Program-made: the position numbers and the translations under genes
Shown: positions 64-52,146 of the stretch, piece by piece
Layout of the letters: each line of letters starts with the position of its first letter
How positions within the stretch are numbered: position 1 is the stretch's first letter
Notes under the pieces: generated by a model
Told to the model about the DNA's origin: nothing
Databases searched by the model: none
What the model saw: the letters and a program-made list of their open reading frames with translations, nothing else
IMG/VR virus record: IMGVR_UViG_3300024323_000009
Span: 1 to 53,162 of that record
Strand: one strand, 5' to 3'
DNA length: 53,162 nt
DNA from: a virus

Positions 64-141
64 GCGCGTATCACTTTTGGGCCGTCCCTATTGCCTCAAA
101 TGGGTGTCCGGGGGTTTGAGCCGCGAAATCCCCTTTGTCAA

Positions 142-157
142 GCATTTTCCGTGCCAT
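142..157 (-). promoter_or_regulatory. Candidate sigma54 (-24/-12) promoter, leftward
   Basis: The minus strand reads TGGCACGGAAAATGCT. This is the -24 element TGGCAC, five bases, then ATGC, with the GG and GC dinucleotides correctly spaced. It differs from consensus TTGC only at the first T of the -12 box. It shares TGGCACG and TGCT with the sites at 9656-9671 and 45845-45864. It points off the contig, towards the leftward arm if the ends join. Confidence 0.4.
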
Positions 158-1064: not shown

Positions 1065-2099
1065 GTCACTACTCCCAATCGCTTCCGGCGTTGTCAGGTT
1101 ACCTACTTCCCCATGCTTGCTAGTAATCCCTATGCGCTAGCTAGCAGACCCATACGTGAGCTAGTAGAAAGCTAGTGTTGCTTTGCGATAAATCGTAAAT
1201 CCTTTTCAGCCAGCATATCCGCCAGTGTTGGCATTTACCCTTCAGGTTACCTATTTGCCCCATCCTGCTAGTCCTACTCCGATCACTCTCCTAGCGAGTC
1301 GCTATCTCCTGCTAGCTTGCTCAAAAACTAGGAGTAGTAAGTAGTGGCATCTGACTAAGATCATAATGGTAAGTGTTTAAGTTTAAAAAGACCCCCCACA
1401 CCGTGTATATTAGAATATATAATTTATATACATTATAGTTGTTTACTGGCGTTTAACCCGTAAATTCTCGCAAACACTTCACGGGCACCCCTTAAACACT
1501 CCGCTCGTTCAATGGCGTTTATCGGAGACCTACAACGACACCCTTGCTACTCGACACCTAGTGCTAGCTAGCAATCCTTATCGTCTTTGTAGTGACACAA
1601 GCGCAACTAAAGACTAGCACTATTCCGACGTGTATAAATAAATACAGCTAACATCACACTCGCGTTTAATTGTTGCGCTTATCTTACGAGTTGACTAATG
1701 ACATTTACTACTCATTACTAACAAGCATCACGCTGTTACTAATAACGTCGCTAGTTAGCGGCAGATAATTAAACGCCGTTTATCCCACCGTGCTAGTCAT
1801 CACGCCAGTTACTACTCCACCGCTAGTTATTACCATAGCTAATCATGTGCTATTACTAGGGAGGGGTAGCCCCCAGAAACATTTTTGCTGGCCCGAACCA
1901 TCATACTCTCTCGAAACGCTAATTTTCGAGTATTCGAGGTTCTTAATGATAGCAACTAGCTACTCGATACTATTACCCAGATGTTGGCATAAGAAATGCT
2001 CTGTTAGATAGTGATTTATGGATACTAGTTTGTGGAGCACATCTAATAATGGTAACGGATGGAGTATAACTTCACAGAGAATTGTGGCGGAGAGTGGTT
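1065..2099. other. Long non-coding region, CTAG-rich with short repeats
   Basis: No convincing gene is visible across about 1 kb. It holds 19 CTAG tetranucleotides between 1081 and 2040, where about four are expected. The palindrome GCTAGCTAGC occurs twice (1136-1145 and 1563-1572). A GCTAG[T/C]AATCC[C/T]TAT repeat occurs near 1119 and 1567. Four copies of a GCGTTTA-type element occur (1448-1460, 1514-1525, 1661-1672 and, as CGCCGTTTAT, 1774-1783). A very AT-rich stretch lies at about 1400-1435. Repeats plus an AT-rich block in the largest gene-free region suggest a replication origin, packaging site or control region. I found no tRNA. Confidence 0.6.
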
Positions 2100-3056: not shown

Positions 3057-3349
3057 ACACAAGAACATTCATCAAATCACTGCTAGTCGGCGCTATCGCA
3101 CCTTCGGTATTTTTGCCGAAAGCTAGTGACTCGTTTAAGTGGAAACGCACGGCTAGTGGAATCTATGTTGTTAGTGACGTTGACAAATTTCAAAGACTTC
3201 CTTATTACTTAACCAAGGTTGAATTAGAGCATTTTCCCAGCTGGAATAGTTTTGAAATGTTGTATGGAACCAATATCTGGAAACCAGATATGGGTGATAC
3301 TAAAAGAGCAATTACTATTCGCTCCGATTTTTACGCTTCTGGATTCTAG
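3053..3349 (+). CDS. Partial duplicate of the MCP N-terminal arm
   Basis: This is a 98-residue protein. Residues 42-88 align without gaps to residues 18-64 of the major capsid protein (9817-11097). I count 28 identities in 47, including the shared FQ.LP.YL, FP.WN.F, LYG and MG.T.RA motifs. The first 41 residues are different: a hydrophobic stretch at 7-22 resembles a signal or membrane segment, followed by FKWKRTASGIYVV. After the homologous block the protein ends within ten residues. Its start overlaps the TerS stop (ATGA). The DNA is visibly more AT-rich and uses different codons from the MCP gene, so it is not a recent local copy. It could be a remnant of another phage's capsid gene or a working MCP-arm mimic. 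Confidence 0.8.
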   Translation: MNTRTFIKSLLVGAIAPSVFLPKASDSFKWKRTASGIYVVSDVDKFQRLPYYLTKVELEHFPSWNSFEMLYGTNIWKPDMGDTKRAITIRSDFYASGF

Positions 3350-3351
3350 TT

Positions 3352-4959
3352 GTGGACTCCAACACCTCCATCGTCCCCTTCGATTTCAAAGACCCGATAG
3401 ATATGCTACTAGCGATAGATGATATGCTACTTCGAGGCTCCGCGAATGGTGGCATTGACCTCTATAAGTGGCAAATGGAAGTAATGAAAGACTTCGCACA
3501 GGAGAGTAGCGACCGAGAGCCATTCCTAGCAGTAGCTCGAACCTGTAATGGTGCCGGTAAGGACCATATGCTAATTGCGCCCTGTGCTACATGGTTGTGC
3601 TGTCACTATGCCTACGCACAAGTTGTGATAACGTCGAAGTCCGGCCCACAGCTAGACAAGCAGACGAACACCCGCATACAACAGATATGCGAAGCATTTA
3701 ATGCTAAGTGCGGCGAAGAGATATGGAAGATCAACTACCGGCACTATGAGAACCTTCGCACTCGCTCTACTATTGAAATGTTTGTTACAGATGAGGCTGG
3801 ACGCGCCGAAGGATGGCACCCTAAAGTTCCGGGAGGCAAGCAGGCGATATTTACTAGCGAAGCGAAGTCCATCGAAGAAGAGATATTCCAAGCCCTCGCT
3901 AGATGCACCGGAACTACTCACCGACTCGACTGTTCTACACCGGGGTTACCTATGGGGCATTTCTTTAACAGATGCACTAGTGGCAACTGGCGCAAGTACC
4001 ATGTGACGGCGTTCGACTGTCCCCATATCTCACCGGCGGAGATAGCTAGCGTTGCAGAGATGTATGGTGAAGGCTCTCCGACGTATAAGTCCATGATCCT
4101 CGCAGAGTTCTCCACTACCGACGACTTAGTAGTAATTCCGTATTTTCGTGTAGTAGCAGCGATGTCGGGGAACGGGAAGATTCCGCATACTCGGGAAGTG
4201 CATAACACCGGCGGTCTAGACCTATCGGCGGGTGGAGACGAGACTGTGCTAGCGGTTAGGAATGGTAACAAACTACTCTCTATATATGGATGGCGATATG
4301 ATGATACCAGTAGAACAGTCGAACATGTCGAAAAACTGCTCAAGGAGAATGGGTTACAAGACCCTAAAACTACAATCTGGGCTGACGCCGGAGGACTTGG
4401 GAAACCAATCATTGATAATCTACGTTCGAGAGGATGGTACAATATCAAGTATGTTGTTAATCAAGGCTCCCCCAACGACAAGCGAGTCTATCTCAACCGT
4501 GGAACAGAAATGTACTTCACCCTCAACCGATGGCTAGAAAATGGCGAGATCATACTACTCCCAGATGAACGATTACGACGACAACTATCCACTCGTTACT
4601 ATGTTGCGACCGATAACAGGTATCGTCTTGAATCAAAGCTACAAGCGAGGGCCAAAGGGCATCCGTCCCCGGACAGAGCTGATGCCGTTGTATTGGCATT
4701 CTCGAACTACCGAACTCAATTTCGAGATGGCGTACCAGATGATCGGCTCCCGCTACCACCACGAGTTATACAGTCACCTCCTACGGGGGGAGACTTCACT
4801 CTGAAAGGTCATGCACAGGGAGGGGATGATGTGCAACGATACCTCGATCAGAAGTATGGTTCATGGTCAGCGAACGGCAAAGATGATAGCTATTTGAGGG
4901 AGCAGATTGCGGAGTTGAATGCGAAGAGGAAAGCAGTAACCACTAATGAAAATAACTGA
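3352..4959 (+). CDS. terL: Terminase large subunit
   Basis: This 535-residue packaging motor protein has an N-terminal ATPase and a C-terminal nuclease. The P-loop is at about 67-71 (CNGAGKD), where Asp replaces the usual Ser/Thr after Lys. The Walker B region is AIFTSE (165-170), and an STP coupling motif sits near 195. RNase H-like nuclease acids are at D290 (GGLDLS), D345 (IWADAGG) and D441/D444 (SPDRADAV). Length fits the family. The start is GTG just after the preceding TAG; no in-frame ATG precedes M18. It follows TerS and precedes portal. Identification is secure. The unusual P-loop is noted separately. Confidence 0.93.
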   Translation: MDSNTSIVPFDFKDPIDMLLAIDDMLLRGSANGGIDLYKWQMEVMKDFAQESSDREPFLAVARTCNGAGKDHMLIAPCATWLCCHYAYAQVVITSKSGPQLDKQTNTRIQQICEAFNAKCGEEIWKINYRHYENLRTRSTIEMFVTDEAGRAEGWHPKVPGGKQAIFTSEAKSIEEEIFQALARCTGTTHRLDCSTPGLPMGHFFNRCTSGNWRKYHVTAFDCPHISPAEIASVAEMYGEGSPTYKSMILAEFSTTDDLVVIPYFRVVAAMSGNGKIPHTREVHNTGGLDLSAGGDETVLAVRNGNKLLSIYGWRYDDTSRTVEHVEKLLKENGLQDPKTTIWADAGGLGKPIIDNLRSRGWYNIKYVVNQGSPNDKRVYLNRGTEMYFTLNRWLENGEIILLPDERLRRQLSTRYYVATDNRYRLESKLQARAKGHPSPDRADAVVLAFSNYRTQFRDGVPDDRLPLPPRVIQSPPTGGDFTLKGHAQGGDDVQRYLDQKYGSWSANGKDDSYLREQIAELNAKRKAVTTNENN

Positions 4960-9655: not shown

Positions 9656-9671
9656 TGGCACGAATCTTGCT
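9656..9671 (+). promoter_or_regulatory. Consensus sigma54 promoter of the capsid unit
   Basis: TGGCACGAATCTTGCT matches the sigma54 (RpoN) consensus TGGCAC-N5-TTGC exactly, including invariant GG (9657-9658) and GC (9669-9670). Transcription would start near 9681, leaving a leader of about 135 bases before the MCP ATG. It lies in the 181-base gap between scaffold and MCP. A terminator at 11679-11716 closes the unit after one further gene. The phage encodes its own sigma54-activator ATPase (46504-47376), which makes chance occurrence less likely. Confidence 0.8.
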
Positions 9672-9816: not shown

Positions 9817-11097
9817 ATGCCAAATTACTATGAGCAGCCTGCTTCCTTCGCTAATGCGATTGTGGAAGATAAGGACCGCTTCCAGAAACTTCCCTTCTAT
9901 CTCGTCAAAAACGAACTCGAAGTGTTCCCACGCTGGAATATCTTCGATCAACTCTATGGTAACATCTCATGGGAACCCAACATGGGTAACACCATGCGAG
10001 CAGTTACGCCGCAGAAAAGCCCAGTAGCTAACTCATTCGCGTTCCCTAACAATATCGACGTTCTCCCTAATAAGAACGTCTATCAGGTTACGGAGTCGAG
10101 CGAAGACGCGAGAGTAAAGGCGCAGCGGTTCGAGTCACAGCAATTCTCGTTTGTTCCCTACTTCACGTCGTTCTGGCGCGATCACTTACAGTTTGCGAAC
10201 CGTGATATTGCGACGCAGATTCAGAACTATAACAATCAGTTCATACGAACGAATATGCTGGCGAAGAGCAACTATGCTTATATCGCCGGTAAGGGACTCA
10301 TCGGGCAAGCTCCTACTGCGGACCTTGGCACTGTTACTACGGATGCGAATGGTAACACGTTGACAGCAGCCGCAAACTCTAAGACCTCCGCATGGTTCGC
10401 TGCACAAGCCGCACTCATTAAGAACAATCTCTCGCTCCGGGATGTGTATAACGCGATGCTCAGCCATACGGAAGACCTCGCTGCTCCACCGTTCGATGGC
10501 GTGAAGAATATGCCTACTGACAATGAAGGACTGAAAGGGAAGTATGTCATTGTTGGTAGCACAGAAGCGTGGGCAGCATTTCCCTACGACCCTGATACTA
10601 ATCTCCTCAAGAGCTTGGAACAGAATATCCTGTTCAAAGACTTCACTGGGCTGTTGTTCGGCAAGGTGACGTGGAAGTTTGACCGCTATCCTCTGCGGTT
10701 CGATGCTACTGGCGCATTCATTGCTCCCGAAGCGTATGATGACACGGTGAAGAAGTGCATTCCTAATCCGAACTACACTTCGTTGCTCACTGCACCCTAC
10801 GAAATCGCATGGATGCTCGGACAAGACGCCTGCAAGACGATCAAAGTCGGACCTCCACCGAAAGAGTTCGCTGCTACTAGCATGGCTGCGAAGAAGTTCT
10901 ACTCTCTCAAGTGGAATGGTGAGATTCAGCTTACCGATCAAGTGTTGATTACCTACGCGGATGGCACTACTGACCTCAACACCTACGGCACTCAGTTGAA
11001 GTTCATCTCGCAATGCACTCACGGCTACCTTACTGGTGAGCCTCGCTATGCGTTCCCCATTCTGTTCAAGCGCGCTCGTCCGGCGTTGGCAGTCTAA
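9817..11097 (+). CDS. Major capsid protein
   Basis: This 426-residue protein has the size, position (after scaffold) and promoter strength expected of the capsid protein, probably with an HK97-type fold. Residues 1-65 form an extended arm containing FQKLPFYL and LYGNISWEPNMGNTMRA, the part duplicated in the 3053-3349 gene. The C-terminal half contains NYTSLLTAPYEIAWMLGQ (about 316-333) and ends in a strand-rich domain. The ATG follows ACAACAGGACAATTAA. The next gene is cotranscribed, and a terminator follows it. I assign it by context and family features, not a database match. Confidence 0.88.
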   Translation: MPNYYEQPASFANAIVEDKDRFQKLPFYLVKNELEVFPRWNIFDQLYGNISWEPNMGNTMRAVTPQKSPVANSFAFPNNIDVLPNKNVYQVTESSEDARVKAQRFESQQFSFVPYFTSFWRDHLQFANRDIATQIQNYNNQFIRTNMLAKSNYAYIAGKGLIGQAPTADLGTVTTDANGNTLTAAANSKTSAWFAAQAALIKNNLSLRDVYNAMLSHTEDLAAPPFDGVKNMPTDNEGLKGKYVIVGSTEAWAAFPYDPDTNLLKSLEQNILFKDFTGLLFGKVTWKFDRYPLRFDATGAFIAPEAYDDTVKKCIPNPNYTSLLTAPYEIAWMLGQDACKTIKVGPPPKEFAATSMAAKKFYSLKWNGEIQLTDQVLITYADGTTDLNTYGTQLKFISQCTHGYLTGEPRYAFPILFKRARPALAV

Positions 11098-33705: not shown

Positions 33706-35142
33706 TTAGGAGGCGCTATTACTATCTCGGCTCGCCGCATTCGGTGATGGGTTTTGACTTGTGGAGGTAGTGGTGGCTCTTGACTCCACAACTTGAGTGC
33801 CGTCAGCAACAATAGTAACAACACTAGGAGTAGGAGTGATGGTGGGGGGAATAGCGGTAGCTTGTTGTTTTTGTTGGAGTGCTTCATGGTGAGATTTGGA
33901 GATGCGGAAGGTTCCACGATCTATGTTTTGAGTTTGGGGATTGGTGTTGATAGCTCTGTCGGTGGCTACAAGAGACTCCATCACTTCCATCAACTCGGTC
34001 TTCTTGAGGTCGTTGCCGAACTGGAGTTGGAGGCGTTTGAACGACGTAGTAGATTCGCCTTGCTCTGCGAGATACCGTACTATGTCATTCCCCGATTCAT
34101 GCAAGACGTTTCTCCCTGAGTTAGCAAACGCTAGGTGCATATTGACTTCGGCTTCTCCTAGCGTGTCGAAGGCTTCCTTAGCAGTAGCAATGGAGATGAC
34201 ATTCGTATCATATCGCTCCGCGTAGTGTAGTATGGTCATCAACTTGAGCCAGTGTATCTTCTTCCTCCCGTAGTAGTCATCGAGTCGAGGATTCTTATTG
34301 ACTCGATGCTTTATCATATCTCCCGACTCATACATCGTGTTGAAGTAGTGTTCAGCTTCGGGGGAGAGCGTGACTTCTCCCACTACGCGAGTAGCTATCT
34401 CCTTCACATGCGCGACAATCTCTACATACGCTTGTTGTTGCTCTGGTGATAGCTCTCTCGGCGCACGGAAGAACCTAGCACCATCAGCATAAATCATAAT
34501 CGTCCTCGACGTGAATCCTTTCTTGACAACTCTATCAGCCAAGAGATCACGTATGCTATTGGGAGTAGTGCCAGCAAGCATATTGACACACACGTTCTTG
34601 ATATGATGGACTCCTTGGTGACGGGTTTCATAGCTTAGATTACCAGCATCGTAGAGGTCGTTTAGTACAGCTACCATATCGGCCATATCACGGGAGAAGA
34701 GGACTTCTAGTTCTTCGATGTTGAAGGAGCATGAACAGTGAGCGGTAATGCGTTTCTCGCCGTTCGAGGACTTGTACTCGGCGCTCCGTATCTCCTTGGA
34801 GAGGAGTTCGATAATACGTTGGCATGTGACTTTCGATGGTGATGTTTTGATTAGCTGGATGATACGGCCATCCTTGTCCACTGTAGTCATTAGTGGGTGA
34901 AGTATCACGGAGAGCACTTGTTTGATAGTTCGCCCTTTGCCAGTAGCAGGAGGGCCGATGAGTATGGAGTAGAGGTTCGAGAATATGGAGTTGTGGTCGG
35001 GTAGTTCAGTGATGCGATTGGCGCGTAACCAGACCTTGCGTTGGAGCGCACTGGCGATCATGTGGATAAAGCCCCACCGTATGAAGATTAGGGGCGATTC
35101 TAGGTCTTGTGTGTATAGTAGCCATCTGTCATAGTTTGTCAT
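33706..35142 (-). CDS. DUF3987-like helicase / primase-helicase ATPase
   Basis: This 478-residue protein has a P-loop GPPATGKGRT (63-72), with Gly after the P-loop Lys as I recall for this phage family, and an acidic ELEVLFSRDMADM region. Polar-helical motifs such as LLAGTTPNSIRDLL (about 190-203) and SRTIMIY follow. The N-terminus (PLIFIRWGFIHMIASALQRKVWLR) is typical of DUF3987-type replicative helicases. From about 425 the tail is Thr/Ser/Pro-rich and disordered. It lies with DNA polymerase and SSB genes and probably unwinds DNA at the fork. Confidence 0.7.
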   Translation of the reverse strand: MTNYDRWLLYTQDLESPLIFIRWGFIHMIASALQRKVWLRANRITELPDHNSIFSNLYSILIGPPATGKGRTIKQVLSVILHPLMTTVDKDGRIIQLIKTSPSKVTCQRIIELLSKEIRSAEYKSSNGEKRITAHCSCSFNIEELEVLFSRDMADMVAVLNDLYDAGNLSYETRHQGVHHIKNVCVNMLAGTTPNSIRDLLADRVVKKGFTSRTIMIYADGARFFRAPRELSPEQQQAYVEIVAHVKEIATRVVGEVTLSPEAEHYFNTMYESGDMIKHRVNKNPRLDDYYGRKKIHWLKLMTILHYAERYDTNVISIATAKEAFDTLGEAEVNMHLAFANSGRNVLHESGNDIVRYLAEQGESTTSFKRLQLQFGNDLKKTELMEVMESLVATDRAINTNPQTQNIDRGTFRISKSHHEALQQKQQATAIPPTITPTPSVVTIVADGTQVVESRATTTSTSQNPSPNAASRDSNSAS

Positions 35143-35734: not shown

Positions 35735-38227
35735 TTAGTTCAATTTCAAAATCTCCATCTCTCCCCACGACGATTCACTCCACTTTGCCTCCGTCTTCAT
35801 ATAGAACTCTTCGCCGCGAGGGGATACTAACCGGCGATTCATATGCCTTGCTATCTCCTTAGCCATAGCCTCCTTGTGGGAAGGGTAACACTGCGCGAGG
35901 ATGCTATCATGGTTGTTCTGTAGGATGTCAAGACCGGCTTCTTCGAGCACCTTATCGCCGTCCATCAACCTCTCTTGTAGTTCGGTGATAGCATAGTTCG
36001 TGATTTGTCCAATAGTAGATTGCGGTGGGAAAGCGTAGTATTCCTTATACTTCGACTCTTCAATGATGCCAGTTATCACGCGAGGATGGCCGAATGCATT
36101 ACGAAGGATGCCGGTGCGTCGCACTTCCATCACTAGGTCACGCTGCCATTCTTGGATTTCGGGGAACAACCGTTGGCGAACGTCTATGATCTTCTGTGCT
36201 TCGACCATAGAGAGAGCGACGGCGCCACCACTCTTTACTAGAGTGTTAAGACGAAATGCTCTCGCCTTAGCATCATAGTTCAAGCTGTGGTTGCCTTGCT
36301 TCGCCATAAAGTAGTAGCGTCGTTCGGCTGGCCACTTATCTGACTCTTTGCAGCACTTGGCTATCTCTGGCCACTTACTCTCCTTTACTAACTCCCTAAC
36401 TGGTAATGCTCGATAGTGGTCTAGCTTATAGCCTAACTCGGCTTCAAACTGCTCCGCGAAGATGTGCATTGCTAGCCACGAATGAGGGTTGATACCACAC
36501 AAGAAGATGTCTCGGAACTGACCAGCGCGACACAAGTAGGCGACGTGTAACGCTTCTGCTCCAGCTTGGTCTAGTTGTAGCATACCCTTACCGTAATCCG
36601 GTGTTATCTCCTTCCTCAACTCTTCTTCCCAGTTCTGCAAGTTATCCCCCCACCGTCTGAGAAGCTTGCTTGAACCAAGTCGCATAGTAATAGTTTTGCC
36701 GAGACGCCAGCTAGTAGTAATCCGGGGAGTAGTTCCCTCTTTGGTGTAAAGACCAAAGTAATATCGAGGTTCTCCTTTTTTAGATTTAAGTCCAGCTTTG
36801 CTAATACGTTTCTGATTTCCTCTGTACTTAAGAATTGCATGGATAGCTGGCACGTCGTATTTGAGCAACAGTTGAAGGAGAGTCTTTTCGTTTGTAGGGT
36901 CTTCCGCTGGTTTGGGGATTTTGAAGGTGGTGTTGTCATATAAATACGCGCTGACTTGTTGCCAAGAGTTAGGGTTGAAATCGTAGCCTGTGATGATGTG
37001 GAGGATGCGTTTGATTTGGATGTTGAACCGCTCATGGTAATCTACTACTTTAGCGATGCGAGTGGTGTCGAGACGTATCCCTTGGAGGGTCATCGTGAGA
37101 TAAGGTATGACCATCCTATTAACCTGCTCCACACTCTCTACTGCTTTGAGCCGCACAGCAGTAGCATCTATCCCCTTCTTAATCTCGACGAGTGCTAGCA
37201 CGTCTTTGCCGTTATACTCGTAGAGTTGTTGGGCTTGTATGTGAGAGCGCGGCTCGAAGATGCCTTCGTTCTTATGGTAGGGGAGTGTGTCGCTATAGAG
37301 ACTTATACAGTGGCCCAAGGATTTTTCGACTTCGATATAACATCGGTTATGCGCCAGCATAGTGTCATAGACACGACGGCCAAGAGGAATACCATAACGC
37401 CACGCGAGCACAAAGAGGTCAAAACAAGCGTTATGAATAATTGCGGTATTATCCCGAAGAGCCACAGCCAAAGCTCGGAGCAATAGTGCGGTGTTGAGTT
37501 CACCATAATAATATGTGGGTTGAGGTTGTATGTGAGTTTGGAGCATTGGCACTACGTAGATATTCGCTCCTTCGTCTAGTGAGAAGCCGAAACACGTAAG
37601 CTGTAAGTTCGAGTCGGTTTCAATGTCAAAATAAAATTGTGTTCGCTTATTGGTGTATAGCAGGTGAAGGATAGTATTAAGGTCTGGGTAGTAATGGTAG
37701 GATGGACTGCTACGCTGTGATAACGCGCTAAGCAGTCTAACAGCTTTCCGTATATCCTGCCGCATCCAGAACCGCCAGTTCTTCCTCTGCGTCCTACCAT
37801 GCGTCGTTTTCCCTTCTGCTGTTTCAGCATCGTCTTTGTCATCATCTTCTTCGCCTTCTGACGAGAAGTAGTCATAGCGGTCGTTAGCGTCTTGTGGTGC
37901 ATATGTTGGTATAAGAGTGAGGTCGTTGTAGTGTAGGGGACACCCTCGGTATTCGTGGAGGTTAGCGCCGGGGAGCCATCTGCGGAGGGAGGCTTCACCC
38001 ATTAGCAATAAGACTTTAGTGTTAGGCAAGAATGGTTGTTGTACGTCACAGGTGCGTATCTCTACTGTTGCGCGGTGTATCATTGGGTTACCACCGGCGA
38101 GTAGGGAGGAGTCGAAGTATTGACCGGCGTTACCACTAATCAACTCCTTCTTGTCAAACCTCGACGGCTTGTCTAGTATCGCGGTGATGCCGGAGTAGGA
38201 GAACTTGGGATGGTGGGTAGTAATCAT
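35735..38227 (-). CDS. polA: Family A DNA polymerase with UDG-like N-terminus
   Basis: This 830-residue replicative polymerase has a UDG-like region at about 70-112 (KVLLLMGEASLRRW, LTLIPTYAPQ) and an acidic linker (121-139). A 3'-5' exonuclease follows, with D201/E203 (FDIET), HNACFD (265-270) and YNGKD (338-342). The polymerase has motif A LQLDQAGAE (D553, E558), motif B K643 with H647 in the position of E. coli F762 and Y651, and motif C HDS (783-785) where HDE is usual. It proofreads and copies the phage genome. The start overlaps the upstream stop. Confidence 0.92.
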   Translation of the reverse strand: MITTHHPKFSYSGITAILDKPSRFDKKELISGNAGQYFDSSLLAGGNPMIHRATVEIRTCDVQQPFLPNTKVLLLMGEASLRRWLPGANLHEYRGCPLHYNDLTLIPTYAPQDANDRYDYFSSEGEEDDDKDDAETAEGKTTHGRTQRKNWRFWMRQDIRKAVRLLSALSQRSSPSYHYYPDLNTILHLLYTNKRTQFYFDIETDSNLQLTCFGFSLDEGANIYVVPMLQTHIQPQPTYYYGELNTALLLRALAVALRDNTAIIHNACFDLFVLAWRYGIPLGRRVYDTMLAHNRCYIEVEKSLGHCISLYSDTLPYHKNEGIFEPRSHIQAQQLYEYNGKDVLALVEIKKGIDATAVRLKAVESVEQVNRMVIPYLTMTLQGIRLDTTRIAKVVDYHERFNIQIKRILHIITGYDFNPNSWQQVSAYLYDNTTFKIPKPAEDPTNEKTLLQLLLKYDVPAIHAILKYRGNQKRISKAGLKSKKGEPRYYFGLYTKEGTTPRITTSWRLGKTITMRLGSSKLLRRWGDNLQNWEEELRKEITPDYGKGMLQLDQAGAEALHVAYLCRAGQFRDIFLCGINPHSWLAMHIFAEQFEAELGYKLDHYRALPVRELVKESKWPEIAKCCKESDKWPAERRYYFMAKQGNHSLNYDAKARAFRLNTLVKSGGAVALSMVEAQKIIDVRQRLFPEIQEWQRDLVMEVRRTGILRNAFGHPRVITGIIEESKYKEYYAFPPQSTIGQITNYAITELQERLMDGDKVLEEAGLDILQNNHDSILAQCYPSHKEAMAKEIARHMNRRLVSPRGEEFYMKTEAKWSESSWGEMEILKLN

Positions 38228-40538: not shown

Positions 40539-40787
40539 CTAGGTCGAACTAGGAACTGATGGAGTAAAGTTATGGATGATGCCGAGTGCAAAGCGACGGC
40601 GATGTTGGCACTCTTTGCCTTCTCGCCTAGCTCTAGCTACTGACTCACGATAAAAGTCACGGCGACTAGCTACCTTTGGAGTGAGTGTGAAGATAGCACT
40701 AGCTGGATACGCCTTTGCAGGTGGCTGAATAGTGGGGTTATACTTGTTATCCGGTTTCGCTGGTGGTTGTTCTTTAGTATCGTTCAT
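40539..40787 (-). CDS. Small basic protein
   Basis: This 82-residue protein has a Pro/Lys-rich N-terminus and a basic segment (RRDFYRESVARARREGKE). The start overlaps the upstream ATPase stop (ATGA) and follows AAAAACAAC. It may bind nucleic acid or partner with the ATPase. Confidence 0.55.
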   Translation of the reverse strand: MNDTKEQPPAKPDNKYNPTIQPPAKAYPASAIFTLTPKVASRRDFYRESVARARREGKECQHRRRFALGIIHNFTPSVPSST

Positions 40788-41461
40788 GTTGTTTTTGGTT
40801 CACCATTATAGTAACTCTTCGCTCTTGCAATCACTGCTGCTAAATCGTTCGGCACTAGTTGGTCAGTGAACATTTCTAGTGGAGTCTTCGCTGTCGTCGA
40901 ACCGTCCGTGTTCGTCTGAAACCAATACTCCATAGCTCCGGCTTTATTGCGTCGGGGTTCAGTGAACAACACCAGTAAGAACTCCTTCTCAATCTTGCCG
41001 CGTTGTTCCTTGCCATCTACTGCCATCATTCGCTTATTCGTAGTTGAGCCATCCACATTCACTAGTTCTACTATGTCGTCTATGCTAGTGACTGCTACGG
41101 CACACTTATCATTTTTGTATTGGTTGAGAGTAGCTTGGACCATCTTCGAGTATTGTCCGTAAATCTCAAATCCCTTGTAGCACTTTTGGCATAGCTCTTT
41201 GATCTGCTCGAAACGTTTAGTGAGTGAGTCTACTACAATCAACTCTACGTTAGGTGTCTTGAGTGCGAGTTGGAACTGTGAATCATGCTCGGCAGGATTA
41301 GCAAAGGGAAGGATTCGGAACTTATTTGAGCCACGAAAGGGGAACCCCTTACGTTCGCCGTCTAGTATCACAGTTGTATCAGGATTAAGATTTCGTAGCG
41401 AGGTACTCTTCCCAGACCCCGATGGTCCTACAATCGCGATTAGTGCCTTGTGTTCGGACAT
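40784..41461 (-). CDS. RecA-like AAA ATPase (Sak4-like)
   Basis: This 225-residue protein has a P-loop GPSGSGKST (12-20), then ILDGERKG and a Walker B strand ELIVVDSLT (about 73-81). This matches phage Sak4/AAA_24-type recombination ATPases, which load SSB-coated DNA for annealing or repair. It lies between the nuclease and SSB-like genes, consistent with a phage recombination module. Confidence 0.7.
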   Translation of the reverse strand: MSEHKALIAIVGPSGSGKSTSLRNLNPDTTVILDGERKGFPFRGSNKFRILPFANPAEHDSQFQLALKTPNVELIVVDSLTKRFEQIKELCQKCYKGFEIYGQYSKMVQATLNQYKNDKCAVAVTSIDDIVELVNVDGSTTNKRMMAVDGKEQRGKIEKEFLLVLFTEPRRNKAGAMEYWFQTNTDGSTTAKTPLEMFTDQLVPNDLAAVIARAKSYYNGEPKTT

Positions 41462-41532
41462 AGCTAGTAGATAGTGATGGTGTTGTTACTGTTTAACTGA
41501 GTGAAAACATAGAGCATTTTCTATGCCAACTT

Positions 41533-41781
41533 TTAGAGCAATGCTACACGCATCGGTTTGATAGTGTCAATTCGCCGTTCAGCACGATTGAGGATGCCGA
41601 GTATTCTATCAGCTTCACGTGTGGAAAGATATGGAGTGCGACAGACGAAAGCTTTAGCGCCGCGTAACCGTAGTTTGTGCCAGTTGCGGACAGCAGCGGC
41701 GCGGGAGAGTGGTGATTGGTCGTGGCCGGGATGCTTAGGAGTGTTCATCCCGTGTGCGTATTTATAGTTGGTGTTTTTCAT
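41533..41781 (-). CDS. Small basic protein
   Basis: This 82-residue basic protein contains SRAAAVRNWHKLRLRGAKAF and TREADRILGILNRAERRID. It probably binds DNA or RNA. Its start overlaps the nuclease stop. Confidence 0.55.
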   Translation of the reverse strand: MKNTNYKYAHGMNTPKHPGHDQSPLSRAAAVRNWHKLRLRGAKAFVCRTPYLSTREADRILGILNRAERRIDTIKPMRVALL

Positions 41782-42722
41782 GTTTGGAATTGGAGGGGAT
41801 CATACTTCTTGCTCACAAAATTACTACTCGCAATCGCCGCTCTACTATCAGCATCGAGGCATCTACACATAGGGACAAACTCGCACATACCATACTCGGC
41901 AGAGCAGCAGGTGAAGTTGGGAGGGAACAACTCGGCGGGGTCTTCGCCGGGTTTCGATGCTAGCACTGACTCGAACCGCGATATGATTTCCTTCGCTTTC
42001 CCTATCAGTGCGTTTTTGTGGTGTCGCAACTGCCACTCAGTAGGCTCTATTAAGTCGCTGCGTTGGAACACATTCTTATTAGTGCGGTTGAGGAAGATGC
42101 CGTTCAACATCACGCCGATGGGTGGCTCCGTAGGAAATAGGAGAGAGTTGATAGTAGCGTATGTCAGGAGTTGCGCCGAGGGGTCCGCCTTAGCTAGATA
42201 GCCAGTGGGGTTCTGAGACATGCTAGTGGTCTTGTGGTCGCAGATAACGTGCCGATTCATACACTCACCTTTGAGGTCTATGGTGCCACAGAGGAGTAGC
42301 TCGGTGGTGTCGGTGCGATAGAATGGGTAAGCGAAGTTCTTCTCTACTAGATACTCGGTGCCGATACGTCCAGCGACGAGAGTATCCCCACTACCATAGT
42401 GCTCAAAGTACTGCATCAGACAGTTCACTAGATGGGCTAGGGAGCGCCAGTCGGAGGTGGGAACTGTCACAGGAGCATAGTGAGCGACTGCTAACGCAAT
42501 ACACTGTTCGGGGTTATGATTCCCACGATACCAATGTGCTAACGCTTTGTGGAACGCCGTACCATATTCCATCTTGAAGTCTTTATGTTCAGTAGTGAGT
42601 CCTAGGAACAACCTATTCCAGACATACATATAGCAGTTAGACTTGGAGTGGAGAGAGGCGTCGTAGCGGAGGATATACCTGCCTGTCTCTTTATCCTGTT
42701 CGATGGGGAGTTGTAGTGTCAT
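41778..42722 (-). CDS. Cas4/RecB-like PD-(D/E)XK nuclease
   Basis: This 314-residue protein has GTAFHKAL (54-61), then GTIDLKGE with D149, then VICDHKTTS with D162 and K164: the H, D, D/E-x-K active site. Cys residues at 30 and in CCSAEYGMCEFVPMC near the C-terminus suggest a 4Fe-4S cluster as in Cas4/AddB. It probably works as an exonuclease with the Sak4-like ATPase in recombination. The start overlaps the upstream stop (ATGA). Confidence 0.8.
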   Translation of the reverse strand: MTLQLPIEQDKETGRYILRYDASLHSKSNCYMYVWNRLFLGLTTEHKDFKMEYGTAFHKALAHWYRGNHNPEQCIALAVAHYAPVTVPTSDWRSLAHLVNCLMQYFEHYGSGDTLVAGRIGTEYLVEKNFAYPFYRTDTTELLLCGTIDLKGECMNRHVICDHKTTSMSQNPTGYLAKADPSAQLLTYATINSLLFPTEPPIGVMLNGIFLNRTNKNVFQRSDLIEPTEWQLRHHKNALIGKAKEIISRFESVLASKPGEDPAELFPPNFTCCSAEYGMCEFVPMCRCLDADSRAAIASSNFVSKKYDPLQFQT

Positions 42723-44062: not shown

Positions 44063-44674
44063 TTATCTCATTACTCTCACATAAGTCTGTTGTATATCTG
44101 CCTCTACTCCCTCGATACCCGCAAACAGTTGGACTAGCCACTCCTTATCGGCGTCGGAGATAGGAATGCCATTTGCGTATAGCTTCCGACTATCCCATAT
44201 CTCTTCCGACTGTGCGACTTGTAACCACTCCTGCAATGCATCTTTCCAGTTAGCTTCGGGTCTGGAAGCATCAACTACGTTAGTCACTGAGCTAGCTAGT
44301 ATCGCAGACATAGTGTTCTTGAAGTAGAGGATGATACCGATAGCTTCTCCCTCAGCGTTCCACTCTTTGCTAATACCTATTTGCTGTCTGAACTGTAAAT
44401 AGCGTCCGGGTTGTGGGTCGAACTCGCTCAACCAGCGGAGGGCGTCGTTAGCTTTGATATACAACGTGCTAGCGGAATAGCCAGAGAGTTGACAGCTAAC
44501 CTTCTTCGTCTGCCTATCTGCTATCATTCCATCAAAGATCGGCTTCCACGCAGCCGCGTTCTCAGGAGTGAACGATGGACGATGCTTCGCTATAGTCCCT
44601 TTCGGTCTGCGGGTGTTAGCTAGCACCGGCGCTGCCACACTAATCGCTTCGAGAGGGGGATTATCGTTGGGCAT
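44063..44674 (-). CDS. Hypothetical protein
   Basis: This 203-residue protein has a basic N-terminus (NTRRPKGTIAKHRPSF), then a segment SCQLSGYSASTLYIKANDAL that could be a helix-turn-helix, and an acidic C-terminus. A DNA-binding role is possible but unproven. Confidence 0.6.
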   Translation of the reverse strand: MPNDNPPLEAISVAAPVLANTRRPKGTIAKHRPSFTPENAAAWKPIFDGMIADRQTKKVSCQLSGYSASTLYIKANDALRWLSEFDPQPGRYLQFRQQIGISKEWNAEGEAIGIILYFKNTMSAILASSVTNVVDASRPEANWKDALQEWLQVAQSEEIWDSRKLYANGIPISDADKEWLVQLFAGIEGVEADIQQTYVRVMR

Positions 44675-45192: not shown

Positions 45193-45774
45193 TTACGTAG
45201 TCGCAGTAGTCGCCTGTGCCGCAGCCGCAGCAGCTTCTCCCTGCGCCATTTCTGTCATTACCTTCTGCATCTTGAGCAGCAAGGCAACACCCTCTTGTAT
45301 CTTCGCCGGGTCTTTTGACTCCATCAGCTCGCGAGCTTGCTTGAACATCTGATTGGGCGAGAGTTCGCGCACGTCTGGACGCCAGCTAGCAGCTTCGTCC
45401 TGAGTGTAGAGGATGCCGTCTTTGAACTTCGCTAGTAACGTCTGTTGCAGTTGGATACCAGCAGCGACATTCTTAGTATCGAACTTTTCGGGGACGTTAT
45501 CATTCTTCACCTTCGTCCTGATACGAGCAGCGCCGACACTGGCCATCACTCCCATAATCGCTTCTTTGCCGAGCCGAGTTACCATAGTGTCGAAGTCGGA
45601 ATACACAGGAGAGTAGAACTTGAAGTTCTTGAGTGGGCCTTCGGAGATTTCGTTAAGCTCGAAGGTGATGGGAGCACCATTGGTAGCAGCGGGTGCTGCG
45701 GTAGTTGTAGTAGCAGCAGTGCCTCCACTATCTGCAACTGTGGGGTCAAGGAGGATGTTTCGATTATTATTCAT
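45193..45774 (-). CDS. Hypothetical protein behind a sigma54-type promoter
   Basis: This 193-residue protein has a Thr/Ala-rich N-terminus (1-35), a compact middle (FELNEISEGPLKNFKFYSPV) and an Ala/Gln-rich helical C-terminus. It appears to be a single-gene unit between a -24/-12 promoter (45845-45864) and tandem hairpins (45087-45172). If the sigma54 circuit controls late genes, this may be a virion or assembly protein despite its location. Family unknown. Confidence 0.75.
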   Translation of the reverse strand: MNNNRNILLDPTVADSGGTAATTTTAAPAATNGAPITFELNEISEGPLKNFKFYSPVYSDFDTMVTRLGKEAIMGVMASVGAARIRTKVKNDNVPEKFDTKNVAAGIQLQQTLLAKFKDGILYTQDEAASWRPDVRELSPNQMFKQARELMESKDPAKIQEGVALLLKMQKVMTEMAQGEAAAAAAQATTATT

Positions 45775-45844: not shown

Positions 45845-45864
45845 TTAAGCAGGAATCGTGCCAA
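45845..45864 (-). promoter_or_regulatory. Sigma54-type promoter, leftward
   Basis: The minus strand reads TTGGCACGATTCCTGCTTAA. This is TGGCAC, five bases, then CTGC, one mismatch from TGGCAC-N5-TTGC, with GG (45862-45861) and GC (45850-45849) in place. It closely resembles the MCP promoter (TTGGCACGAATCTTGCT). It lies in the gap of about 125 bases before the 45193-45774 gene. Confidence 0.65.
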
Positions 45865-45900: not shown

Positions 45901-46269
45901 TTACTTTCGCTTCTTGGTTGTGGTTCCTTTCTGCTGTTTCTTATAGATAAAAGTACTCCACGCCTTCCACATCACCGCTGCTCGTTCGCCAGTATAGGTG
46001 ATGGAGTGATTCGCGGAGAGTTGGAAGATGACACACTCTTTCCAGACATCAACTAGTCGTAGTCTTATACCACGTTCTAGTTCTGTCTCGCCGGGGTAGT
46101 CTGGATGAGGATAGGCTAGCTTGTTAGGGTAAATCAACTCCCTCCTAATAGTATTGAATCCACCCGGACCTTTTAACTTGCTCTGCTGCCCATACTGGTT
46201 CACCCAATAGTGGGTGCCGTGTTGGACATGACTAAAGTTTAGTAGACTGGTGTTGTTTGGTATTTTCAT
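45901..46269 (-). CDS. Hypothetical protein
   Basis: This 122-residue protein contains GPGGFNTIRRELIYPNKLAY and NHSITYTGERAAVMWKAWST, motifs I recall from small phage proteins of unknown role. The C-terminus is Lys-rich. It overlaps the upstream gene by 38 bases. It is the last gene before the 45845-45864 promoter. Confidence 0.6.
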   Translation of the reverse strand: MKIPNNTSLLNFSHVQHGTHYWVNQYGQQSKLKGPGGFNTIRRELIYPNKLAYPHPDYPGETELERGIRLRLVDVWKECVIFQLSANHSITYTGERAAVMWKAWSTFIYKKQQKGTTTKKRK

Positions 46270-46507
46270 TTTCTTTTCTGTAGTTTAGAATTTGGTTAAG
46301 CTCATCAATGAACATGCGACCTTTATCACACTTGGCACACAAGAAGTAATGCCGAACTTTGTTGGTAGGATTTATTCCTACAGATTCTATGGCGCTTCTT
46401 TCAACTTCGTATCCATTTAGTTCGCGTTTAGCATCTACCAAATCTTGTTCCACTTCACTAGTCGGTATGTGATTAACTTTGTTTATCTGTTCTACTGTTA
46501 GTGTCAT
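46232..46507 (-). CDS. Hypothetical protein
   Basis: This 91-residue protein is helical (EVEQDLVDAKRELNGYEVER) with one CAKC pair and a basic tail. Its start overlaps the activator ATPase stop (ATGA), so the two are coupled. It may modulate the activator, but that rests on position only. Confidence 0.55.
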   Translation of the reverse strand: MTLTVEQINKVNHIPTSEVEQDLVDAKRELNGYEVERSAIESVGINPTNKVRHYFLCAKCDKGRMFIDELNQILNYRKENENTKQHQSTKL

Positions 46508-47376
46508 TGTATATCCTCCACCGTTATCGCCTCTACCCCTAACACTTCGATGCGGAGCGCAAGGTTAAGGAGTTGCCGCACATTACCCGGCAACACTTTT
46601 TCTGGCGGGACAGTCTTAACTAGCTCTAGTATTCTAGTATAAGCAACACTATTAACTAGTAGTTTGCAGTCATCCATTTTCTCGCGGAGAGGCTTCACTT
46701 TCAATTCAAATACTGATAGCCTCTGATACAAGTCTAGTCTAAAAGTAGGAGGGTCTAACTTAGACATGGCTTTCAAGTCTTTATGTGTTGCAGCCACAAT
46801 GCGACACAATAATTGTTCATCCGTATTACCACCAACCTTGCGAAAGGTTCTATTGTTAATTGTGCGTAATAGCTTTACTTGCAAATCGGCAGGCATATCA
46901 CCTACCTCGTCTAGAAAAAGTGTGCCTCCTTCGGCTTGTTTGATAAGGCCATTACGTTCTCTCTCTGCTCCTGTGAAAGCACCTCTAGTATGGCCGAATA
47001 GTTCACTCTCGAATAATAGTGGACTGACAGCACACACATTGACGCCGACTAGTTGACCTCTACGTTCTCCATGTAGTATGTTAGCGAGCAGTTCTTTACC
47101 TACTCCACTGTCGCCTAAGATAAGAACAGGCTCTTCTCTAGGGGCTAGTTTAATAGTTTGCTCCTTCACTTTGATAGTGTCAGCGTCGTTAGTCTTGAAC
47201 GCTCTCGCTGCCTTCCACGCTGCTATTCGCCAAGGGTTGATGATGCCGGAGGCTACTGCGCCGGACATGAGAGCTACACTAGGTGACTTCTCCTTCTCTA
47301 GTAGTGTGGCCCATATCTCGGCTTGTTGCTCAATAGTGAGTTCGCTAGTGGAGGGTGCTATTTTTTGTTCACTCAT
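46504..47376 (-). CDS. Sigma54-activator AAA+ ATPase without DNA-binding domain
   Basis: This 290-residue protein is a bacterial enhancer-binding protein-type ATPase. It has Walker A GDSGVGKE (88-95), ESELFGHTRGAFTGA with the sigma54-contacting GAFTGA loop at 132-137, Walker B GGTLFLDEVGDMP (150-162; D156, E157), FRLDLYQRL with arginine-finger candidates R213/R219, and sensor II LPGNVRQL (R267). It uses ATP to remodel the closed RNA polymerase-sigma54 complex. A short N-terminal region (1-75) carries no recognised regulatory domain. The protein ends just after the AAA+ lid with no C-terminal helix-turn-helix, so it may act from solution. It starts one base after the upstream stop (TAA-T-ATG). 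Confidence 0.9.
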   Translation of the reverse strand: MSEQKIAPSTSELTIEQQAEIWATLLEKEKSPSVALMSGAVASGIINPWRIAAWKAARAFKTNDADTIKVKEQTIKLAPREEPVLILGDSGVGKELLANILHGERRGQLVGVNVCAVSPLLFESELFGHTRGAFTGAERERNGLIKQAEGGTLFLDEVGDMPADLQVKLLRTINNRTFRKVGGNTDEQLLCRIVAATHKDLKAMSKLDPPTFRLDLYQRLSVFELKVKPLREKMDDCKLLVNSVAYTRILELVKTVPPEKVLPGNVRQLLNLALRIEVLGVEAITVEDIQ

Positions 47377-47609: not shown

Positions 47610-48509
47610 CTAAGCCTGTATCACATCCGTCGTCGCCCACTCCCGTAGGAGTCGCCGGAACTCGGCTAGCATCCTAGTGGGGTCATCTTGGTTCAATGAC
47701 GAAATCCAGATGGGGTTGAGGTTGGAGTCGAAAGGTAGGGTTACGGTGGAATGGGATAGCATGATAGGTATGCCATAACAACCATAGTTTTCAAATCCTA
47801 GTTGTTTACGCTCTTCTGTAGGATACATTTCTTCTATAACAAGACCTAGTCTTCGACACATATAAGAAGAGCATAATGCTATGGCTAACTTGTTAGTGTC
47901 GAATAACTCTCCAAACTCCTTCACCTTAATATATGTAACACACCTCATACCACTACCTTCACATGGTGATACTGTATAGACTTCTGTTGAATATCCACAT
48001 TGTTCCATATGCTCTATCATCAGATAGGTATAAGCTCCGCGATAGAAGAATGCGTTTTCGTCCATGTCTGAGTTATTACGAATGTTACAATAGATACTCT
48101 GCACCTTATTGCCTCGCTTCGTATCTCCACCATCTATCGGCACTTGTTCCGCGATAAACGTCTCCGGCGTCGCACCACTTAGATGCGCGGCAACGTCTAT
48201 CACTCCACCCGCTATCTGATGACGTAGCTCCGGCTTATACTCTGTAACTGGCATCACACAGTCGAATAGGTCTGGGGGTAGTGTGCGTTGTAGCTCGCGT
48301 ATCTTAGCGATACCTACTGGCCAGCCGTCGTGACAATAACGCAGAGCTTGTTGTAGAGAAGCGCCGGCCCAATCGTCATACTCGGAGTATAGTGACAAGT
48401 AGCTACGTGGCTCCGTTCGCTCTCCGTGTTCCACTTGATCTACGAACTCCGACCATGAGTGGAATATATGGGTATATTGTGAGGGAGTGGAGTAGTGTTG
48501 GCCTTTCAT
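47610..48509 (-). CDS. DUF7192-like phage protein, ATPase partner
   Basis: This 299-residue protein starts at the ATG overlapping the MoxR-like gene's TGA. It contains HIFHSWSEFVDQVEHGERT and LQQALRYCHDGWPVGIAKI, a pattern I recall from the phage DUF7192 family, and an Asp/Ser-containing middle (NNSDMDENAFFYRGAYTYLM). Genes paired with MoxR-like ATPases often encode VWA-type partners. Whether this has that fold is unproven. Confidence 0.5.
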   Translation of the reverse strand: MKGQHYSTPSQYTHIFHSWSEFVDQVEHGERTEPRSYLSLYSEYDDWAGASLQQALRYCHDGWPVGIAKIRELQRTLPPDLFDCVMPVTEYKPELRHQIAGGVIDVAAHLSGATPETFIAEQVPIDGGDTKRGNKVQSIYCNIRNNSDMDENAFFYRGAYTYLMIEHMEQCGYSTEVYTVSPCEGSGMRCVTYIKVKEFGELFDTNKLAIALCSSYMCRRLGLVIEEMYPTEERKQLGFENYGCYGIPIMLSHSTVTLPFDSNLNPIWISSLNQDDPTRMLAEFRRLLREWATTDVIQA

Positions 48510-50323: not shown

Positions 50324-50325
50324 AA

Positions 50326-50511
50326 CTACTCCTTTACTCGCCAAGGTTCTAGTGCTGCTTCAATGCGATCAGCTAACGATAAGCTGACATTGTATAGTTT
50401 AGCTCGTTCGATTGTAATAGCTGGTAGAGCATCCCTTGCTTCTAGCAATAGTTTAGCTTGCTCTATCACTATCTTCTCTAACTCTTCATGTGTTAAGTCT
50501 GCTATTTTCAT
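50326..50511 (-). CDS. Small helical protein
   Basis: This 61-residue helical protein contains MKIADLTHEELEKIVIEQAK. The leader AATAGAACAACACCGAT precedes its ATG. It is tightly linked to the MoxR-like ATPase gene. Function unknown. Confidence 0.6.
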   Translation of the reverse strand: MKIADLTHEELEKIVIEQAKLLLEARDALPAITIERAKLYNVSLSLADRIEAALEPWRVKE

Positions 50512-50523
50512 ATCGGTGTTGTT

Positions 50524-52146
50524 CTATTCTTGGTTTTCTAGTCCCTCTCCGGTGATTCCTTCCTCCGAATCATCTATTCCATTATCAGTATCACCCTTAT
50601 GTGCGTCTGTCTCCACAATCTCCGCTATCTTATCACTCTCTTCGCGGTCTATGTCATCGCCAGCGGAACGCTCGAACAGAGTGGAGAACTGTTCCTTCGC
50701 GGTAACTGACTTCGAGATACACTTCACTTTACGCTCTAACACTGGCATCACCTTTTGTGTCTCGATAGTGTCTGCGAACAAGAGCATATCTTGAGTAGTC
50801 GGGGACAAGCTAGTAAGGCGGTGCCCACGTCCTAGGAACTGTACTAGGTCTATCGCGCTCCAAGGTAGCGGTATTACTACATGCCTAGGCTTGGTGCTAG
50901 CACGGTCGTGGTGTAGTGAGATGCCTACTCCGCCGGAAGTAGTAGTGACGACGATGTAGTCACTCTTACCTTGCTGGAAATTATCCACAGCTAGCTGGCG
51001 TGCCTTCTCTGTCTGTCCGCCTACGATAAACGAGATACGTTCCTTCGGCACTCCTAATACCTTAACTAGGTGTGTCCATATTCCGCGAGCAGTATCTATG
51101 AAGTTGACGCCGAAGATTACTTGCTTACCACTCTGCGTTACTGCTTCGTAACCTCGCTCTGCTAACTGGGCGTAACGTAGGAATTCCGCTTTTTGCCGGA
51201 ACTTTTGCATCGCCACGAGTATCGCCATGCTGCCATGCTCCGTGTTCTTGTTAGCTTTACGTAGCTCTTCGAGATACTCTAGGTAAGCGTTCTCGTATTG
51301 TGTGCGCTGTTCACTAGTCTTGAACTGAATGACTTTGCACTTCGTTGACGACGGGTATTTGAAACGAACGCCCTTCAACTCTACTATCCACGGCTCTAAC
51401 GATTCGCGCAACCGCTCGACACTACTAGGACTGTATTCGTCTGGATGCTTAGGAGACGCGATAGAGTGGGTGATAGCTTCCACGTTCTTATAGTTAGCGG
51501 GGAAGTAATAGTATGGCTTGGGAGTTGCGGCTGTTCGTATTAGCGAGCATCGTGCATCACTAACTCGCTGCCACGGTGTTGCGGAAGCGCCGAGCCACTT
51601 CACGGAGCTAGGACAAGCACACATTACGCTAGTAATCATTGCTCCACGATTCTTCAACTTCTGTATCTCGTCACACTTCACGATAGCTGGCAGGAAAGAG
51701 TGTTTCCATACTGGTTTAATCACTGGTTGACCGTTCTCGATAGTAGTAACATATTCGAGGAACAAGTCGGTGCCTAGCTTAGCTTTTAGTTCGCCGTAGG
51801 ACATTACTAGACATAGGTGGAAGATACCACACTCCTTTAGGACGCGGTTAGTTTGTATCTTCACTGACTTAGGACAGAGCCATAGGACGGGGAAGGGAGT
51901 GATACTGCCAGCGGGCAATACTAGCTTACCCTCATCCACCATACGGCGAATAGCTAGTGCGGCGATATACATTTTGCCGAGACCCGTGCTACCACGTAAT
52001 ACGACACCTTGATAGTTCGTGTTACCATACAACTTATCCACTATCTCCTCTACTGCCCGTTGTTGCCAGTCTATTAGCTGGACACTAGGGAGGATAGGTA
52101 TGGTGGGAGCGATGGGGATAGTAGGTAGTGTGAGGGTGTCGAGCAT
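50524..52146 (-). CDS. SF2 (SNF2/DEAD-like) helicase
   Basis: This 540-residue protein has Q-region WQQRAVEEI (27-35), motif I GSTGLGKM (52-59) with Met in place of the usual Thr/Ser, motif II CDEIQKLKN (158-166), motif III GASATPW (186-192), motif V SGGVGISLHH and motif VI QFLGRGHR (436-443). The acidic tail (about 490-540) is disordered. It probably remodels or unwinds DNA in replication or recombination. The start is the ATG one base after the zinc-finger gene stop. Confidence 0.85.
   Translation of the reverse strand: MLDTLTLPTIPIAPTIPILPSVQLIDWQQRAVEEIVDKLYGNTNYQGVVLRGSTGLGKMYIAALAIRRMVDEGKLVLPAGSITPFPVLWLCPKSVKIQTNRVLKECGIFHLCLVMSYGELKAKLGTDLFLEYVTTIENGQPVIKPVWKHSFLPAIVKCDEIQKLKNRGAMITSVMCACPSSVKWLGASATPWQRVSDARCSLIRTAATPKPYYYFPANYKNVEAITHSIASPKHPDEYSPSSVERLRESLEPWIVELKGVRFKYPSSTKCKVIQFKTSEQRTQYENAYLEYLEELRKANKNTEHGSMAILVAMQKFRQKAEFLRYAQLAERGYEAVTQSGKQVIFGVNFIDTARGIWTHLVKVLGVPKERISFIVGGQTEKARQLAVDNFQQGKSDYIVVTTTSGGVGISLHHDRASTKPRHVVIPLPWSAIDLVQFLGRGHRLTSLSPTTQDMLLFADTIETQKVMPVLERKVKCISKSVTAKEQFSTLFERSAGDDIDREESDKIAEIVETDAHKGDTDNGIDDSEEGITGEGLENQE

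Follow-up and report, generated by a model that had tools for sequence, protein, structure and literature searches.

The window, as the whole stretch of DNA analyzed here is called, comprises an entire IMG/VR virus record (53,162 bp), and one of its genes raises the question of whether a phage can direct its host's sigma-54 transcription machinery with an activator that has no DNA-binding domain (DBD). To redirect host RNA polymerase, phages are known to employ sigma factors, co-activators, or anti-sigma factors of their own, or entire polymerases. An original prediction, made from the sequence, had proposed that the product of this gene redirects host polymerase carrying sigma-54 to phage promoters. 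Genes in the window were called with a simple ORF caller.

A phage-encoded sigma-54 activator that ends after the AAA+ domain

46504..47376, minus strand: DBD-less sigma-54 activator (AAA+ only, 290 aa), the main finding, based on Pfam, NCBIfam, PDB, AF2, and alignment

The ORF begins with ATG, and its 290-aa product was confirmed by domain and motifs as a member of the bacterial enhancer-binding protein (bEBP; PF00158) family. Residues 64 to 225 match Pfam PF00158 (Sigma54_activat) at 6.1e-52, well above the cutoff, and NCBIfam models, including RtcR, NtrC, NorR, and PspF, match at 1e-38 to 1e-56, below their full-length cutoffs because the AAA+ core alone aligns. The nearest PDB chains were bEBPs throughout (FleQ, NtrC, NtrC1, and PspF). 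Direct reading identified Walker A (GDSGVGKE), the GAFTGA sequence of loop 1 (RGAFTGA), Walker B (GTLFLDE), sensor II (GNVRQL), and an arginine-finger region (FRLDLYQRL) carrying R213 and R219. Residues G88/G91/G93/K94, N113, T135/G136/A137, D156/E157, R213, R219, and G264/N265/R267 were invariant in 20 aligned relatives. Every hallmark listed in the original prediction (GAFTGA, Walker A and B, and sensor II) is thus present, as is the arginine finger.

The claim that the protein stops after the AAA+ lid and has no recognized sensor domain also held: the C terminus lies approximately 20 residues past sensor II, where the TGA codon (46506-46504) is part of an ATGA shared with the next ORF, no helix-turn-helix (HTH) family was found in a Pfam search at E values of ≤0.1, and the N-terminal 60 residues had no Pfam family match. 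An AF2 model built from 20 relatives had a pLDDT of 77 and a pTM of 0.72, with most of the AAA+ core at 85 to 97, the lid at approximately 60 to 65, and the N-terminal stretch of approximately 60 residues at low confidence. Using VIA-align, residues 54 to 290 of the model were aligned with NtrC4 (Z = 25.6), FleQ/FlrC (Z = 25.2), and PspF (Z = 23.9), a fold match at Z values of about 24 to 26 to the PspF/NtrC1-type proteins named in that prediction. A Foldseek search of BFVD returned only CobS/MoxR/Lon-like AAA+ proteins among the 50 matches listed. Assignment to another AAA+ group was ruled out by Pfam, NCBIfam, PDB, and the tree described below; homology, fold, and tree all place the protein with sigma-54 activators, contrary to the homology outcome that the original prediction named as refuting it.

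DBD-less activators form one clade in a lineage of tailed phages

Homologues in other phage genomes were identified in IMG/VR, with 54 loci found by scan and 77 by profile scan. Most are short (approximately 240 to 300 aa), carry G[AS][FY]TGA, and lack a DBD; approximately 40 of them constitute a single DBD-less clade, whose members are all as short as the window activator. In a tree that also included bEBPs of cells and viral bEBPs with a DBD, the DBD-less proteins occupied one side of a branch with support of 100/97, or 83/95 once seven divergent members were added. The relatives mostly have GSFTGA or GSYTGA instead of GAFTGA, and in the most divergent member the loop is altered to FSFTGSA. 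Marine relatives have only approximately 20 residues N-terminal to the AAA+ domain.

The phages carrying these proteins have a common gene order: helicase, activator, F193, F203, exonuclease, Sak4, family A polymerase, and primase. The terminase, portal-like, and capsid-like genes make up a divergent structural arm. The corresponding genes of the window are as follows.

3352..4959, plus strand: terminase large subunit; its 50% identical orthologue, L070:6125-7675, matches the phrog_2 terminase at 4.9e-30
9817..11097, plus strand: capsid-like gene (426 aa), downstream of the promoter at 9656; orthologues 39 to 57% identical in eight phages; no strong family match
33706..35142, minus strand: primase/helicase (phrog_14296, 4.1e-33)
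35735..38227, minus strand: family A DNA polymerase (phrog_17, 3.7e-55; PF00476)
40784..41461, minus strand: Sak4-like recombinase (phrog_2872, 1.3e-26)
41778..42722, minus strand: exonuclease-like gene of the replication operon (phrog_1218, 1.7e-9)
44063..44674, minus strand: F203 (203 aa), conserved within the replication operon
45193..45774, minus strand: F193 (193 aa), first gene of the sigma-54-headed replication operon; orthologues in 11 relatives; no Pfam match
50524..52146, minus strand: SF2 helicase (phrog_62, 2.6e-21; PF00271), located in the early block, upstream of the activator, and syntenic in relatives

A "major capsid" label for 9817..11097 would be positional; the AF2 model of this protein was poor (pLDDT of 41) and gave no confirmation of a capsid, and the PHROGs "head protein" family matched one member at only 0.028. 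The activator was present in 12 of the 12 contigs of >25 kb retrieved via the capsid-like gene; the five contigs retrieved in this way that lack the activator are fragments of ≤24 kb. INPHARED contained no cultured relative of the capsid-like protein. RpoN (PF04552) was absent from 21 phage records, some of which are fragments, while control families were detected; no phage-encoded sigma-54 was thus found in these records, which implies the use of host sigma-54.

Sigma-54 sites in the window

Using TGGCAYR-N4-TTGCW as the -24/-12 consensus, the following sites were assigned.

9656..9671, plus strand: sigma-54 promoter TGGCACGAATCTTGCT, matching the consensus perfectly, in an intergenic region 145 bp upstream of the capsid-like ORF at 9817; same position in 18/18 phages
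45848..45863, minus strand: sigma-54 promoter TGGCACGATTCCTGCT, one mismatch, 73 bp upstream of F193 (193 aa), with which the replication operon begins; conserved in position, at ≤1 mismatch, in 14/15 phages
141..156, minus strand: candidate sigma-54 site TGGCACGGAAAATGCT, one mismatch; the F139 orthologue in G002 is preceded by a site
1985..2000, plus strand: weaker candidate sigma-54 site TGGCATAAGAAATGCT, one mismatch, before the terminase/portal operon
41513..41528, minus strand: weak candidate site TGGCATAGAAAATGCT, not conserved, 51 bp upstream of the Sak4-like gene

The promoter at 9656 to which the original prediction referred therefore exists. The sites at 141, 1985, and 41513 are each individually uncertain. 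The first points out of the contig at its left end and, on a circular or permuted map, would face the early operon. In support of the site at 1985, several relatives have sites near the F145 orthologue. Only 1 of 17 Sak4 orthologues is preceded by a site. Such -24/-12-like sequences could be due to chance or could serve another factor, for example, as a recombination or packaging signal. Within the window this reading has some footing, as eight sites with ≤2 mismatches were found and 7.2 in shuffles, and counts at ≤2 to 3 mismatches in the window alone were set aside as uninformative. The comparisons across genomes given below, namely the permutation and positional tests, the N4 spacer, and the link to DBD-less activators, make it hardly credible.

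Sigma-54 sites are conserved upstream of orthologous genes

In 12 nonredundant contigs (376 kb), 12 perfect sites were found and 0.087 were expected from 300 column-permuted motifs; nine of the perfect sites were positioned as promoters, with none in the 300 permutations. When spacers of N1 to N4 were compared, N4 was enriched (30 sites at ≤1 mismatch versus 7, 1, and 2 for N1 to N3). As a control, the reversed pattern gave 5 matches versus 43 for the forward pattern in 25 records and 1 versus 40 in 17 further records. Among the unselected flanks of the sites, T occurred at -1 in 69% and W followed GCT in 86%, both in agreement with the sigma-54 consensus.

Orthologous genes were then scored for a site, defined as ≤1 mismatch to the consensus in the 250 bp preceding the start codon. 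A site preceded the capsid-like gene in 18 of 18 distinct phages (permuted motifs had a mean of 0.05 and a maximum of 2) and F193 in 14 of 15 (permuted mean of 0.01), the fifteenth having a site with two mismatches; as the sequences are related, such counts are not fully independent. None was found upstream of the control genes: polA (0/26), terL (0/14), the portal-like gene (0/18), helicase (0/17), and the activator (0/24). F145, the first gene of the terminase block, had an upstream site in 5 of 13 cases, and in many marine relatives a site precedes the large gene just upstream of F145. This placement identifies the replication and structural units as the sigma-54 targets and, as a rule, excludes the activator gene itself.

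Sites were also associated with the type of activator. A site lay ≤700 bp downstream of 34 of 40 DBD-less viral activators versus 0 of 13 DBD-bearing ones (Fisher P = 3e-8, a value that overstates independence because the DBD-less proteins are one clade), and L200, L234, L240, L241, and L253, found in the second scan only, had the same downstream-site pattern. The notion that L046/G022, a divergent member with an altered loop, has no sigma-54 sites was dropped, since TGGCATGATACCTGCT lies 55 bp before its F193. The protein might still be an AAA+ protein derived from bEBPs that functions outside transcription, in replication, packaging, or as a chaperone; replication genes lie close to its gene, and one of the neighbors is of the CobS/MoxR AAA+ type (48506-50344). 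However, the G[AS][FY]TGA loop, which is needed for sigma-54 contact, is retained across the clade with few exceptions, and sigma-54 promoters co-occur with the activator, so a nontranscriptional role is highly improbable.

Another possibility is that the sigma-54 promoters are activated but that a separate DNA-binding protein of the phage or host recruits the ring to upstream sites. Most natural bEBPs work from enhancers, and in the window two small ORFs (46232-46507 and 45901-46269) come after the activator, within the 640 bp that separates it from the replication-operon promoter. These ORFs are poorly conserved, with the 91-aa ORF present in no relative and the 122-aa ORF in one, for which reason a split-off DBD encoded there was ruled out, and in most relatives the promoter begins only 2 to 50 bp past the activator stop codon. 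Further, no upstream motif common to the promoters of a genome was above shuffles in 17 of 19 genomes by an ungapped test of low power; no common enhancer motif clearly exceeded shuffles except in one genome with a duplicated 120-bp stretch. A recruiting protein thus appears unlikely.

Comparison with known systems

PspF of Escherichia coli also has no N-terminal sensor domain, and its AAA+ core aligned with the phage protein at a Z value of 23.9 and 36% identity, but PspF has a C-terminal HTH. PspF is inhibited by PspA. Residues 64 to 289 of the window protein match phrog_7998 at 8.9e-38, indicating that activator-type AAA+ proteins exist among phage or prophage proteins; that profile (339 long) has no annotated function and runs approximately 95 positions past the match, possibly a DBD. 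The phage proteins T4 gp55, SPO1 gp28, Mu C, and P2 Ogr redirect the RNA polymerase of the host to a later class of genes. These act with or replace sigma-70 family factors, whereas the phage ATPase described here would use host sigma-54.

Sigma-54 AAA+ activators without a C-terminal HTH are represented in bacteria by CtcC of Chlamydia, a natural bEBP without a DBD (PMC7482065), and FlgR of Helicobacter pylori, called an enhancer-independent activator in the title of Brahmachary 2004 (cited in PMC9449129). Both are chromosomal two-component response regulators, and CtcC has an N-terminal regulatory domain, whereas no sensor domain is recognized in the phage protein, a member of a viral clade. 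DctD250, an AAA+-only fragment of Sinorhizobium DctD, is constitutive, promiscuous, and enhancer independent and acts at many sigma-54 promoters (PMC3844500). It is an engineered laboratory construct without dedicated promoters, and the phage protein, likewise only an AAA+ core, is a natural version of the same design. A sigma-54-type regulator gene has been reported in phage phi1422, where the passage on the gene notes it only as possibly a co-opted host gene and describes no promoters or mechanism (PMC3391216). A search of the open-access literature found no report of a phage lineage with sigma-54 promoters for core or late genes, although subscription papers may contain a prior description; a known protein type, the DBD-less bEBP, thus appears here in a role that seems undescribed.

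Proposed mechanism

Sigma-54 closed complexes are silent until an AAA+ activator acts on them. Since they need such an activator, the simplest reading of the data is that an early phage protein opens host E-sigma54 complexes at phage promoters. The activator would be made early, from a non-sigma-54 promoter, and would assemble in solution as an AAA+ ring whose GAFTGA loop touches host E-sigma54 closed complexes on dedicated -24/-12 promoters within the phage genome, with ATP hydrolysis opening them. The promoter just 3' of the activator gene would drive the replication operon, another would act ahead of the capsid-like gene, and in many relatives a further promoter would precede the terminase/portal block. 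By opening these dedicated promoters, the activator would therefore constitute an early-to-middle/late switch that operates via host RpoN.

The redirection to phage promoters put forward in the original prediction is now strongly supported, both by conserved sigma-54 sites, which precede orthologous genes much more often than chance predicts and are limited to certain transcription units, and by their co-occurrence with the DBD-less activator. Together, the conserved sites and the activator suggest that the lineage runs its infection program through the host sigma-54 system. We consider it very probable that an early DBD-less activator switches host E-sigma54 to the phage replication and structural promoters. 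We infer that the protein contacts sigma-54, has ATPase activity, and works independently of enhancers, as we do the temporal order and the presence of RpoN in the host. Enhancer independence is expected because the protein has no DBD, the promoters have no common upstream motif, and DctD250 and CtcC provide a precedent; by analogy with DctD250, CtcC, and FlgR, the activator is presumably constitutive. As a counterpoint to a simple early-to-late order, a sigma-54 site also precedes the early block in some soil relatives (3/15). The wider proposal is that, throughout a clade of uncultured tailed phages found in marine and terrestrial metagenomes, host sigma-54 serves as the main sigma factor for middle/late genes and is switched on by a natural, AAA+-only, enhancer-free activator; we regard it as likely, with somewhat less confidence.

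Like DctD250 (PMC3844500), an activator without a DBD would be expected to act promiscuously, and host sigma-54 genes may therefore also fire during infection. The protein could accordingly be mainly a host-takeover or auxiliary metabolic gene that activates the host sigma-54 regulon (nitrogen, envelope, and motility), with the phage promoters secondary. This is quite improbable, as pure takeover does not require the conserved sigma-54 sites found before phage core genes; activation of the host regulon may instead be a side effect of the switch to phage promoters.

As closed complexes remain silent until the ATPase acts, switching by sigma-54 promoters would be very tight, and all phage promoters can be served at once by an activator without a DBD. 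If the mechanism is correct, phage genes answer to a phage ATPase and not to host nutrient signals, and infection succeeds only in hosts with rpoN; it is predicted that the hosts of the lineage have rpoN and that its loss leads to resistance. The lineage would be a natural test of enhancer-free bEBP activity, and a small constitutive sigma-54 activator is a possible tool akin to DctD250.

Host assignment and additional features

No tRNA genes that might identify the host were found. The sole GTDB match of the capsid-like gene was contig L179 (JACTVG010000014.1), which belongs to the same phage lineage, has a sigma-54 site before its capsid-like gene, and is binned in an archaeal metagenome-assembled genome (Methanoregulaceae, SPRUCE peat). 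To our knowledge, archaea lack RpoN; L179 is therefore probably misbinned.

Many of the INPHARED matches to the activator are bacterial contigs deposited as phage records, and Acinetobacter phage MD-2021a and Salmonella houtenae contigs, which have bEBP matches, are plainly from bacterial chromosomes. Two IMG/VR loci, L053:3005-5329 and L054:8258-10594, are single ORFs of 774 and 778 aa, respectively, that appear by eye to join a phage portal protein, via an excisionase-type HTH, to a sigma-54-activator-type AAA+ domain lacking GAFTGA; they look like portal-AAA+ fusions. In the G031 contig (L156:3310-5453), approximately 2 kb of mostly noncoding DNA contains seven sigma-54-like sites on both strands and is perhaps a divergent regulatory hub. 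The sites at 20104 and 20460 in the G025 contig (L159/L160) have a long common upstream stretch (ungapped score of 120), probably a duplicated promoter segment.

Within the window, the region between helicase and activator (47610-50344) contains the CobS/MoxR-like AAA+ gene (phrog_249; 48506-50344) and a DUF7192 gene, a pair found in few relatives. A 98-aa ORF beside the terminase gene (3053-3349) resembles the capsid-like protein of relatives (≤50% over approximately 50 residues) and is possibly a partial capsid gene duplication. A 2,315-aa protein encoded in a late position (24900-31847) contains an ATPase domain of the HSP90/histidine-kinase type (PF13589, 1.3e-8) and matches GNAT weakly, and giant homologues of it are carried by relatives.
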